Notes under the pieces: generated by a model
The model's input: the letters and a program-made list of their open reading frames with translations, nothing else
Told to the model about the DNA's origin: nothing
The model's database searches: none
In this document: piece after piece, positions 41,867-53,571 of the stretch
How the letters are laid out: every line of letters begins with the position of its first letter
How positions within the stretch are numbered: the stretch's first letter is position 1
Assembly: GCF_003544815.1 (NCBI RefSeq)
Contig: NZ_CP032100.1
Span: 2,294,001 to 2,358,000, forward strand
Direction of reading: 5' to 3'
From: Arcobacter suis CECT 7833
GTDB taxonomy: Bacteria; Campylobacterota; Campylobacteria; Campylobacterales; Arcobacteraceae
DNA: 64,000 nt
Made by a program: the position numbers and the translations under genes

Positions 41867-42490
41867 ATGGATTTTTTCACAAATACAAATATTTTATTTT
41901 TTTTAGCTGCCTACTTAGTGGGCTCTATTCCTTTTGGTTCAATCTTAGCAAAAACGTTTGCAGGAGTTGATATAACAACAGCAGGAAGTAAATCAATTGG
42001 AGCAACAAATGTTCTAAGAGTCGTAAAAGAGACTAATCCAAAATTAGCAAAAAAACTAGGAATTGCAACAGTTTTACTTGATGCTTTCAAAGGTATACTT
42101 GTATTATTGGTAGCTTTATATTATGGAGTAAGTGATTCTACACTTTGGGCAATTGCAATTTTAGCTGTTTTAGGACATTGTTATTCTATATATTTAGGAT
42201 TAGAAGGTGGGAAAGGAGTAGCAACTGGACTTGGTGTTTATTTAGTTCTTATTCCAATACCAACACTTATTGGTGCAGTTGTTTGGATAGTTTGTGCAAA
42301 AGTTCTTAAAATTTCATCTTTATCATCACTTTTAGGACTAGTGGGAGTAATAGTTAGTGCAACATTTTTAAATGATGGATTAAATGTAGGTTCAAATGTT
42401 CCTATGTATATAATTGCTTTTATAATCATCTATAAACATATCCCAAATATAATAAGAATTATCAAGGGTGAAGAGAAAAAAGTTATATGA
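41867..42490 (+). CDS. plsY: Acyl-phosphate:glycerol-3-phosphate acyltransferase
   Basis: Inner-membrane enzyme that makes lysophosphatidic acid from acyl phosphate. 207 residues with about five membrane segments and the three PlsY motifs: GSIPFGSILAK near 19, GSKSIGATNVLR near 40 and EGGKGVATGLGVY near 110. Downstream folB overlaps its stop by four bases. plsX is not in view. Confidence 0.95.
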   Translation: MDFFTNTNILFFLAAYLVGSIPFGSILAKTFAGVDITTAGSKSIGATNVLRVVKETNPKLAKKLGIATVLLDAFKGILVLLVALYYGVSDSTLWAIAILAVLGHCYSIYLGLEGGKGVATGLGVYLVLIPIPTLIGAVVWIVCAKVLKISSLSSLLGLVGVIVSATFLNDGLNVGSNVPMYIIAFIIIYKHIPNIIRIIKGEEKKVI

Positions 42491-42798
42491 AAATAGAAAT
42501 CTCTGATTTATCCTTTAAATGTATAATTGGTATCTTAGAAATTGAGCGAATAAAAAAACAAAAAGTCATAATAAATATATCTTTTGAATACGATTTTTCA
42601 AAAGATTTGTTTATTGACTACTCAGAAATATCTAATCTTCTAAAATCAACTATGAAAAAACAAAAATTTCTACTTCTTGAAGATGCTATTTTATATTTTG
42701 AATCATTATTACAAAATAGTTACAAAATAACTAACCTTAAAATCAAAATATCAAAACCTAATATATTAAAAAATTGTATTGTTAGTTTAAGTAACTAG
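42487..42798 (+). CDS. folB: Dihydroneopterin aldolase-like (FolB family)
   Basis: 103 residues in the tunnelling fold. It starts KIEISDLSFKCIIGILEIERIKKQKV, matching the FolB opening (F-x-C-x-I-G-x-x-x-x-E-R-x-x-x-Q), and contains LLEDAILYFE where the catalytic lysine/glutamate helix is expected; total length is slightly short of the usual 115-120. It would split dihydroneopterin in folate synthesis. It is coupled to plsY by a four-base overlap, an arrangement I recall in related genomes. Confidence 0.8.
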   Translation: MKIEISDLSFKCIIGILEIERIKKQKVIINISFEYDFSKDLFIDYSEISNLLKSTMKKQKFLLLEDAILYFESLLQNSYKITNLKIKISKPNILKNCIVSLSN

Positions 42799-42900
42799 TG
42801 TTAAATAGGACATAAAAAGTCCGAAAATAGCATTAACACAGCATTAACTAAAGGTTAATTGAAAATTGACTTAAATTAACAGTTAATTAACACTAAAAAC
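42796..42900. promoter_or_regulatory. Array of TTAAC/GTTAA repeats upstream of the porin
   Basis: Seven copies of TTAAC or its complement in about 92 bases: 42800, 42833, 42844, 42854, 42876, 42882 and 42887. Two ATTAAC pairs have an exact 11-base period: ATTAAC-ACAGC-ATTAAC (42832-42848) and ATTAAC-AGTTA-ATTAAC (42875-42891). Also present are a GTGTTAA/TTAACAC inverted pair (42798-42804 and 42833-42839) enclosing a small GGAC/GTCC hairpin, and the palindrome GTTAATTAAC (42882-42891). Probably transcription-factor sites of the porin. Confidence 0.6.
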
Positions 42901-42933
42901 AACATTTTAAGAAAACTTTAAAATTTAGTAATG

Positions 42934-42939
42934 TAGAAT
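42934..42939 (+). promoter_or_regulatory. Possible -10 box of the porin gene
   Basis: TAGAAT, giving an expected start site near 42946 and a leader of about 95 bases. Other AT-rich hexamers nearby make this tentative. Confidence 0.4.
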
Positions 42940-42940
42940 G

Positions 42941-43039
42941 GTCGCAACGGTATGTCGGAAAAGGTTTAAGACTATAGTTTTAGATGAGTTCGCGCGCTCC
43001 GGTAGACTGAAAAAAGATTTCGAAATTTTAGGAGAACAA
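42941..43039 (+). other. GC-rich, probably structured 5' leader of the porin mRNA
   Basis: Bases 42941-43010 hold 33 G or C out of 70 (47%), far above the surroundings. Pairing seen by eye: TGTCGGA (42953-42959) with TCCGGTA (42998-43004), including two G-U pairs; inside it AAGAC (42968-42972) with GTTTT (42977-42981) around TATA. The frame is open and in phase with the porin, but uses codons rare here (CGG, AGG, CGC, TCC, CTG), so I read it as RNA leader and not as coding extension. The ribosome site AGGAG (43030-43034) closes the leader. Confidence 0.5.
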
Positions 43040-44287
43040 ATGAAAAAAATCGCAAAATTAAGTTTAGTAGCTGCAGTTGCAGTTGCAGGATTAACAACTG
43101 CTAATGCTCAACCATTAGAAGAAGCAATCAAAAATGTAGAAGTATCAGGTTCTGTAGTTTATAGATATAATGACTATAAAAATAATGAAAATGGTGCAGA
43201 TACATCATCAGATACAACAGATAACAACTATAAAGTAGCTTTAAACTTAGCTTCTAAAGTGAATGAAGATGTAAAATTTAATTCAAGATTTATTGTTGGT
43301 GGAGCTAATTCAGGTTATGCGACTTTAGATACTACTGCAGCTGATGATGCAAATGTTACAACAACATTATCTAATGCATATTTTGGATATACAGGTATTG
43401 CTAATACTACTGTTAATGTTGGTAAACAAGGTTTAACAACTCCTTGGACTGTAGCTATTGATTCTGATAACAATGAGCAAACTGGTACTGGTATCTTAGC
43501 TCTTTCTACTGTAGGACCTGTTACTTTGGCTGGTGCGTATTTCAATCAAACAAACTTAGATAAATCTTCTGATGCAAAAATAAGTGCAGCGGGTACGGAT
43601 ATTAAACTAACTGACATAGATGCAGTTGCTGCTGGTAGTCAACCTGCGGTTGATGGTGCATTAGACATTGCAACTGTTGGTGCAATTTTAGCTGCTGGAC
43701 CTGTAACAGTTGATGCTTGGTTCCTAGATACAAAAGATTTATTTGACACTTATACAGTTGGTGCAAAATCATCTTTTGATTTATCTGGTGTTAAATTAGG
43801 TGTTGACGCAAGATGGGCTGCATTAACTTTTGATGACGCAACTGCAGATGCTTTAGACTTAGAAACTGATAACTCAATTGCAAAAATCGCTTTAACTGCA
43901 AAAGCAGGAATTGTTGATGCAAAAGTTATTTATGCAGCTACTGATAAAGATGGTGGTTTAACTGCATTAGATAACGATGCTGTTACAACTGTTAATGGAT
44001 GGAATACAACTGTTAATGGTAAAGCAGATGCTGATTATTGGCAAACAACTTTAGGTGTAGATATCTTATCTAACTTAAACTTATCAGCTAACTACAATAA
44101 CTTACAATATGTAAATGATTCTGACGATATGGAAGAAGAAGAGTTATATGCTCAATTATTATATAAAATGAGCAAAAACTTTAATACTTATGTAAGATAT
44201 GGTACGTATACAAAAGAAAATACTACAGCTAATGATGATATCAATGATGATGTAAGAGGAAGATTACAAGTTGAATATACATTCTAA
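43040..44287 (+). CDS. Major outer-membrane porin (Campylobacterota MOMP-like)
   Basis: 415 residues: signal peptide to about 22 (VAAVAVAGLTTANA), then alternating amphipathic strands rich in Asp, Asn, Thr and Ala, ending in the outer-membrane C-terminal signal LQVEYTF with a final Phe. The opening EAIKNVEVSGSVVYRYNDY is typical of porins of this phylum. It should form a beta-barrel for general diffusion. The start ATG at 43040 follows TAGGAGAACAA; an in-frame ATG at 42938 exists but would put a non-signal sequence in front of the signal peptide. Flanked by a repeat array, a GC-rich leader and a strong terminator, as expected for a highly expressed, regulated gene. Confidence 0.88.
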   Translation: MKKIAKLSLVAAVAVAGLTTANAQPLEEAIKNVEVSGSVVYRYNDYKNNENGADTSSDTTDNNYKVALNLASKVNEDVKFNSRFIVGGANSGYATLDTTAADDANVTTTLSNAYFGYTGIANTTVNVGKQGLTTPWTVAIDSDNNEQTGTGILALSTVGPVTLAGAYFNQTNLDKSSDAKISAAGTDIKLTDIDAVAAGSQPAVDGALDIATVGAILAAGPVTVDAWFLDTKDLFDTYTVGAKSSFDLSGVKLGVDARWAALTFDDATADALDLETDNSIAKIALTAKAGIVDAKVIYAATDKDGGLTALDNDAVTTVNGWNTTVNGKADADYWQTTLGVDILSNLNLSANYNNLQYVNDSDDMEEEELYAQLLYKMSKNFNTYVRYGTYTKENTTANDDINDDVRGRLQVEYTF

Positions 44288-51996: not shown

Positions 51997-53466
51997 TTAC
52001 GCAGCTACTGGTGTAGCATTTACTGGTTCTTTATCAAGTACTCTTCCACATCTAATAGTTTTATAAATATTATATGCGAACATAAAGAATCCAATTAGGT
52101 ATAATAACCCACCAACTGCTCTAATTGTATAGTATGGATGTAATACAGTTACTGTATCAATAAATGAATATACTAAAGAACCATATTCATCATATGCTCT
52201 CCACATCATACCTTGTGTAATACCTGCAATCCACATAGAAGTAAAGTATAAAACGATACCTGTAGTTTGTAACCAGAATTGTGTATCCATTAATGATTTA
52301 GAGTAAATTTCTCTTTTATACATTCTTGGAACCATATGGAACAATGCAGCCATAATCATAAATACAACCCATCCTAAAACACCATCATGTACGTGTCCTG
52401 GAATCCAGTCAGTAAAGTGTGCGATAGCATTTACAGATTTAATAGCTTGAATTGGTCCTTCAATTGTTGATAACATATAGAAAGTTGAAGCTAATACCAT
52501 AAATTTGATTAGTGTATTTGTTTGTAATTGTTGCCACTCACCCTTCATTGTTAAAAGCATATTAATAGCTGATCCCCATGATGGTAAAATTAAAACAACT
52601 GACATTACAGAACCCATAGTTTGCATCCAGTCTGGAACAGTTGAATAAATAAGATGGTGTCCACCAGCCCATAAATAAACAAACAATAATCCCCAGAATG
52701 CTAAAATAGAAAGTTTATAAGAATAAACATTCTGTCCAGATTCTTTTGGTAAGAAATAATAAATCATAGCAATAATTGGAGTTGTGAAAACGAATGCAAC
52801 AGCATTGTGTCCATACCACCATTGAACTAGTGCATCATTTGTACCTGAATACATAGAAACAGAGTGAATCCATGAACCATAACCAGATACTAAAGCTGTT
52901 GGAACTTCCATATTATTGAATAAATATAACATTGCAACTGCGATAAATGTAGCAATAAAATACCATAATGAAATATAAAGAGTTCTTTCTCTTCTAATTC
53001 CAATTAATCCAAAAATTGAAATACCCCATAAAACCCACCATACAACAACTAAAATGTCTAATGGCCACTCTAACTCAGCATACTCTTTAGAAGTTGTAAT
53101 ACCCATGAAAAGTGTAACAACAGCTAAAAGAATTGTAATAAAATATAAAACAAAATGTATCTTAGCAATTGCCATTAAAAAAGGTGACTCTTTTAATGAA
53201 ACTTTTAATACTCTTTGCGAAATATAATACCACGCTGCAAAAATACCACTTAGAGCAAAACCAAAAGCAACACCGTTAGTGTGTAAAGGTCTTAATCTAC
53301 TAAATGTACCATATTCTCCAGCTAAATGATTTAACTGTGGAAACGCCAATTGAAACGCAAGTACAACACCGATAGTCATACCTATGATACCAAACAAAAT
53401 TGTTGCAAATGTAAAGGCTTTTGCAACTGAGTAATCGTACTCAATTTGTGCACCGTTTTGCATCAA
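51997..53466 (-). CDS. ccoN: cbb3-type cytochrome c oxidase subunit I
   Basis: Catalytic heme-copper subunit reducing oxygen at very low concentration. 489 residues and about 12 membrane segments. Ligand regions: LHTNGVAFGF near 60 (low-spin heme), YGHNAVAF near 215, GGHHLIYST near 265 (copper-binding pair), and FTDWIPGHVHDGVLGW near 350 (high-spin and low-spin heme histidines). The start ATG has a strong GGAGGAG site. The upstream 160 bases hold an ATTAAC tandem repeat. Confidence 0.97.
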   Translation of the reverse strand: MMQNGAQIEYDYSVAKAFTFATILFGIIGMTIGVVLAFQLAFPQLNHLAGEYGTFSRLRPLHTNGVAFGFALSGIFAAWYYISQRVLKVSLKESPFLMAIAKIHFVLYFITILLAVVTLFMGITTSKEYAELEWPLDILVVVWWVLWGISIFGLIGIRRERTLYISLWYFIATFIAVAMLYLFNNMEVPTALVSGYGSWIHSVSMYSGTNDALVQWWYGHNAVAFVFTTPIIAMIYYFLPKESGQNVYSYKLSILAFWGLLFVYLWAGGHHLIYSTVPDWMQTMGSVMSVVLILPSWGSAINMLLTMKGEWQQLQTNTLIKFMVLASTFYMLSTIEGPIQAIKSVNAIAHFTDWIPGHVHDGVLGWVVFMIMAALFHMVPRMYKREIYSKSLMDTQFWLQTTGIVLYFTSMWIAGITQGMMWRAYDEYGSLVYSFIDTVTVLHPYYTIRAVGGLLYLIGFFMFAYNIYKTIRCGRVLDKEPVNATPVAA

Positions 53467-53554: not shown

Positions 53555-53571
53555 ATTAACGAATAATTAAC
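53555..53571. promoter_or_regulatory. ATTAAC-N5-ATTAAC tandem repeat upstream of ccoN
   Basis: ATTAAC-GAATA-ATTAAC with an 11-base period, the same pattern as the two pairs upstream of the porin. Relative to the gene it is in reverse orientation and about 90-105 bases before the ccoN start codon. Confidence 0.5.

Follow-up and report, generated by a model that had tools for sequence, protein, structure and literature searches.

Phased TTAAC half-sites and a CosR-like box suggest a two-regulator porin promoter in an Arcobacter-type genome

Introduction

Tandem sites for OmpR-family regulators, in which at least two direct repeats lie about 11 bp apart on one strand, are a known kind of control element. 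The Pho box comprises two 11-bp repeats that end 10 bp before the -10 element, and the ArcA box is similar to GTTAA, the reverse complement of TTAAC. The site of the Crp/Fnr-type regulator NssR is TTAAC-N4-GTTAA. In Campylobacter jejuni the consensus of the response regulator CprR is reportedly GTAAAC (GTTTAC on the other strand), and htrA adjoins cprRS in the order htrA-cprR-cprS. The cprRS genes of C. jejuni are cj1227c-cj1226c, and CprR is one of the two essential response regulators of this species, with a poorly known regulon (PMC9449129); CprRS regulates htrA and peb4 (PMC4518328). E. coli ArcA binds arrays of two to five direct repeats spaced 11 bp apart, with long footprints (PMC3798270). 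The orphan regulator HP1043, the orthologue of CosR, has the consensus ttTAAG-5bp-tTTAAg, which at Php1227 occupies -42 to -26, and a G-to-C change in the first half-site of an HP1043 target, making TTTAAC, weakens binding and abolishes activation (PMC8345958).

Here we analysed a stretch of 64,000 nucleotides (the window) from the 2.64-Mb, single-contig genome of a member of an Arcobacter-type genus. The sequence leads us to propose, with a probability of about 0.6, that its porin promoter is read by two regulators: CosR beside RNA polymerase, and a CprR-type regulator on a ladder of TTAAC half-sites upstream.

Results

Layout of the porin promoter

The initial annotation had reported ATTAAC-ACAGC-ATTAAC (42832-42848) and ATTAAC-AGTTA-ATTAAC (42875-42891) in front of a porin. 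Both pairs are exact, lie 43 bases apart and sit between folB and the Campylo_MOMP porin gene; named relatives with similar loci are Aliarcobacter sp. and Arcobacter caeni. The elements of the region, numbered within the window, are as follows.

42487-42798: folB (PF02152)
42833-42891, + strand: six-slot ladder of TTAAC-like half-sites in steps of 10-11 bp (mismatch scoring, resampling, phase in 22 species)
42832-42848, + strand: distal pair ATTAAC-N5-ATTAAC (exact match)
42870-42891, + strand: proximal pair CTTAAATTAAC-AGTTAATTAAC, containing the ATTAAC-AGTTA-ATTAAC of 42875-42891 (exact match)
42906-42922, + strand: CosR/HP1043-like box TTTAAG-AAAAC-TTTAAA (alignment and published consensus)
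42934-42939, + strand: predicted -10 box TAGAAT, TATAAAAT-type in relatives (alignment)
42944-43039, + strand: predicted 5' leader, with a ribosome site AGGAG at 43030-43034 (conservation)
43040-44287, + strand: porin gene, 415 aa, Campylobacter major outer membrane protein family (PF05538, E 3.9e-32)

The true ATG of the porin gene is downstream of the start given by the ORF tool (42938), and transcription is predicted to begin near 42946. The predicted leader is near-invariant in an eight-species clade and is replaced by a shorter one in other species. Its RNA had no Rfam match, its stability was not above that of shuffled sequences (z -0.06), and no covariation was seen.

The reported pairs fall within a single ladder

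On the forward strand, both reported pairs fall into a single ladder, whose slots read TTAAC (42833 and 42844), TTAAT (42855), TTGAC (42866) and again TTAAC (42876 and 42887). At 10/11-bp spacing the best six-slot ladder carries 2 mismatches in 30 positions, as against 8-14 at all other spacings tried, and the lowest score among 20,000 resamples was 6 mismatches. The seven TTAAC/GTTAA copies counted initially in about 92 bases are all present (42800-42891), and any unrelated 92-base stretch of the window holds at most three. The accompanying expectation of about 0.5 copies was too high, since the window frequency gives 0.29 per 92 bases, and the GC content, put near 27%, is 28% in the window and 22% in the intergenic stretch. 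When the region's own dinucleotides were resampled, seven words arose in 1 of 20,000 trials and a single ATTAAC-N5-ATTAAC pair in 9 of 20,000. This analysis confirms that the repeats upstream of the porin are real and far above chance, and with six direct repeats in register on one strand the assignment to a predicted OmpR-type site family is well supported.

Porin promoters from 22 species of the same genus were aligned, and offsets were counted from the next conserved element downstream of the ladder. All 44 exact TTAAC words fall at just six offsets (-74, -63, -41, -31, -20 and -9), with -31 occupied in 15 of the 22 species and -20 in 16; the species being related and not independent, these counts do not amount to a probability. 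Which slots are strong varies by species (mostly -31 and -20, sometimes -20 and -9) while the phase is constant, and facing GTTAA words are confined to half of the species, so that the direct repeats, and not a palindrome, are the conserved feature. Conservation in relatives, on which the initial annotation had made its claim depend, thus holds for the phase of the array but not for the distal pair, whose two TTAAC words are both intact only in the window's species; the surrounding block AGCA-TAACACAGCAT is retained in close relatives with one word altered.

A CosR-like box lies downstream of the ladder

TTTAAGAAAACTTTAA, at 42906-42921, falls within the most conserved element of the porin promoter, and TTAAGAAAA[C/G]TTTAA is present in all 22 same-genus promoters. 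The full box (42906-42922) lies at about -40 to -24 of the predicted start and matches the HP1043 consensus in sequence and position; it is therefore a predicted HP1043/CosR activator box. The genome encodes a CosR/HP1043 orthologue (PDB 8uvx at 6e-115; PDB 2hqr, which we take to be HP1043, at 2e-83). Where the first half-site of that consensus has G, at position 6, the TTAAC ladder has C. Because this G-to-C change weakens binding to an HP1043 target and kills its activation, reading TTAAC as a variant CosR site is disfavoured and probably incorrect. The initial annotation had proposed precisely such an OmpR-type regulator acting through a TTAAC variant of the HP1043/CosR site: the OmpR/PhoB-type tandem arrangement, in phase in relatives, survives, but the CosR variant does not, given the mutational effect and a separate, better-conserved TTTAAG-N5-TTTAAA box.

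TTTAAG-N5-TTTAA was also observed upstream of four rRNA operons, one tRNA gene and rpmH (L048, L051, L054, L055, L053, L049; identities from sequence), so that CosR control of translation genes is possible. The raw genome count of this pattern was not above its reversed-pattern control.

TTAAC pairs recur before envelope genes across the order

With 10 occurrences in the genome, k=5 is the commonest spacing of ATTAAC-Nk-ATTAAC for k between 0 and 26; no other value exceeds 7 (mean about 1.3). The shorter form TTAAC-N6-TTAAC occupies 21 places, 17 of them intergenic by our own ORF calls. The comparison of coding with intergenic counts suggested initially therefore came out in favour of the repeats, the N5 spacing being over-represented and mostly intergenic. 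The raw genome total of TTAAC-N6-TTAAC is not above the reversed-pattern control (21 versus 25), and its signal becomes visible only once position and -10 spacing are considered. In 9 of the 21 places TAnnnT lies exactly 10 bp downstream, whereas counts at the remaining offsets between 2 and 25 do not exceed 3. Combined with this -10 element, the pattern outnumbers its reversed form by 9 to 0 in the genome itself and by 114 to 35 in 31 genomes of the genus (hand-summed); with TAnnAT, about 155 cases against 14 reversed were found among 120 genomes across the order, in 70 genomes (hand-summed).

The box usually lies 42-49 bp from the start codon. Orthologous groups that recur behind it are NosL-domain proteins, ResB-like cytochrome c maturation proteins, SecG, a PEB4-like PPIase, PCu(A)C, YceI, TonB receptors (including a copper-receptor relative) and ExbB-like proteins. 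The N10 geometry of these genes is absent from the porin ladder. A further case in the window concerns ccoN:

51997-53466: ccoN (cbb3 oxidase; TIGR00780, 691 bits)
53555-53571, - strand: another exact ATTAAC-N5-ATTAAC pair in the window (GTTAA-N6-GTTAA read towards ccoN)

This pair lies about 90 bp upstream of ccoN in opposite orientation, and relatives have similar sites (L187, L189, L217, L212).

That this site type occurs before many envelope genes across the order suggests a common control circuit, for the most part undescribed. At roughly even odds, TTAAC-N6-TTAAC-N10-TATAAT could be an undescribed activator box of most families of the order (near-absent in some), joining porin, htrA, PEB4-like chaperone, SecG, TonB receptor, PCu(A)C, NosL-like and cytochrome c maturation genes in a single circuit for envelope and metal functions, governed by CprR or by an OmpR-type regulator not yet recognised; the porin would then carry an extended six-site form stacked on CosR.

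As a separate observation, a small membrane-protein gene of 80-90 codons follows a TTAAC box by 20-40 bp at several loci (L078, L129, L172, L192, L198, L202 and others), and in many species it appears to begin with ATT or ATC after AGGAG.

CprR is the best candidate for the ladder

The genome has 33 OmpR-type DNA-binding domains above the cut-off. A TTAAC pair is found upstream of an HtrA-type protease gene that is followed by an OmpR-family regulator and then a kinase (G000:C1:2407582-2410920), so that a CprR orthologue is linked to both htrA and its kinase. With up to one mismatch allowed, 29 of 30 species carry the pair ahead of htrA-cprR-cprS and 27 of 29 carry it ahead of the PEB4-like gene, and two of the three exceptions are contig edges; orthologues of htrA and peb4 thus share the box within one mismatch. 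At htrA, several species have TTTAC in place of the first TTAAC, and a GTTTAC that does not vary follows the second half-site at a distance of about 22 bp, again in phase; the word at the porin is TTAAC. The order htrA-cprR-cprS, the box before both htrA and the PEB4-like gene, the C. jejuni CprRS targets and the TTTAC/GTTTAC words at htrA together make CprR the best candidate, and we infer that its orthologue probably binds the porin ladder. Counting against this reading are the 33 OmpR-type domains, the missing N10 geometry at the porin ladder and the phyletic profiling, in which one genome (G076) has several boxes without a close CprR, and two families (f10 and f13) have CprR-like proteins and few boxes.

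The cprR gene itself (L278, G000:C1:2409026; L282-L311) shows no ATG, GTG or TTG at the expected start; in all 29 readable species the codon there is ATT, ATA or ATC, a rare kind of start codon. Elsewhere, L102 (G000:C1:642660-642869) is a response-regulator gene of 55-110 aa, compared with 220 aa in the approximately 89% identical L242 and L243, and is probably a broken copy.

Discussion

According to the proposed model, CosR would bind TTTAAG-N5-TTTAAA in the usual place of the -35 element and aid RNA polymerase, while a second OmpR-family regulator, most likely the orthologue of CprR (encoded in htrA-cprR-cprS, with a link to envelope genes in C. jejuni), would occupy as many as six TTAAC half-sites along the same face of the helix, at about -113 to -55. 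Two to six in-phase half-sites would be filled, probably by dimers that cooperate as those of ArcA or OmpR do, and the bound regulator may raise or tune porin transcription in addition to activation by CosR. At other genes, two TTAAC half-sites would replace the -35 element 10 bp before the -10 element, in a Pho-box-like arrangement.

The same architecture would hold if the ladder were bound by another OmpR-family regulator, of the L095 type or a RacR/ArsR-like paralogue, which is unlikely although not far-fetched. Exact boxes directly precede two homologous regulator genes, L095 here and L264 in another family (47% identical to L095), and the genome with boxes and no close CprR would also fit a different binder. 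However, the L095 orthologues of G012 and G023 lack the box, the L095 box overlaps a terminator-like inverted repeat, and the box at htrA-cprRS is far better conserved. Autoregulation of L095 was likewise set aside, its box being unconserved and accompanied by this repeat. That CosR itself binds both elements, with TTAAC as a variant half-site, we consider improbable: the TTTAAG box and the ladder do share their 11-bp period and orientation, and the H. pylori rpoD promoter has two HP1043 sites with the distal one at -45 to -68 (PMC5253667), but the G-to-C change is detrimental (PMC8345958), the gap to the -10 element is 10 bp for TTAAC boxes and 11 bp for the CosR-like box, and the gene sets downstream of the two boxes differ.

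It would be very surprising if the TTAAC/GTTAA pairs were read by a palindrome-binding factor, whether of the Crp/Fnr type (such as NssR) or of the MarR/TetR type. In the window's clade, TTAAC-A-GTTAA and GTTAATTAAC do form palindromes; nevertheless, only half of the species have facing GTTAA words, the phase of the direct repeats is kept, and facing words are separated by 1 and 5 bp as opposed to the 4 bp of NssR. Chance, or a plain AT-rich UP element, is close to untenable: resampling at equal dinucleotide content, a helical phase strictly kept in 22 species and, elsewhere, the constant distance of 10 bp to the -10 element all speak against it, in spite of a region of 22% GC and raw TTAAC-N6-TTAAC counts equal to the reversed control.

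In the literature open to searching, which lies mostly outside the subscription journals, no TTAAC or TTAACAC response-regulator motif was found for this phylum, nor any description of the TTAAC box, of how widely it occurs in the order or of its association with the porin. The box has a fixed geometry, is conserved over the order and can be read by eye, and so provides a testable target list. It links the major porin with a periplasmic quality-control operon and with copper and TonB uptake genes, and the porin promoter would be a natural example in which one promoter is served by two OmpR-type regulators that are both essential in a relative.

The half-site described here is mostly TTAAC, in contrast to the GTAAAC/GTTTAC reported for CprR of C. 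jejuni, and the porin, SecG, TonB and copper genes are putative additions. Common to the two systems are an OmpR-type regulator gene beside htrA, the targets htrA and peb4 (PMC4518328) and TTTAC half-sites in phase at htrA. The ladder shares its 11-bp direct repeats with the HP1043/CosR box, which the neighbouring 42906-42922 fits, but it has C where G matters, six slots and a position further upstream. Unlike the carbon oxidation genes of ArcA, the genes concerned here serve envelope and metal functions, and no ArcA orthologue was identified. The repeat/-10 geometry at the PEB4-like, NosL-like and ResB-like genes is that of the PhoB Pho box, whereas the half-site word is different and the porin ladder lies further upstream.
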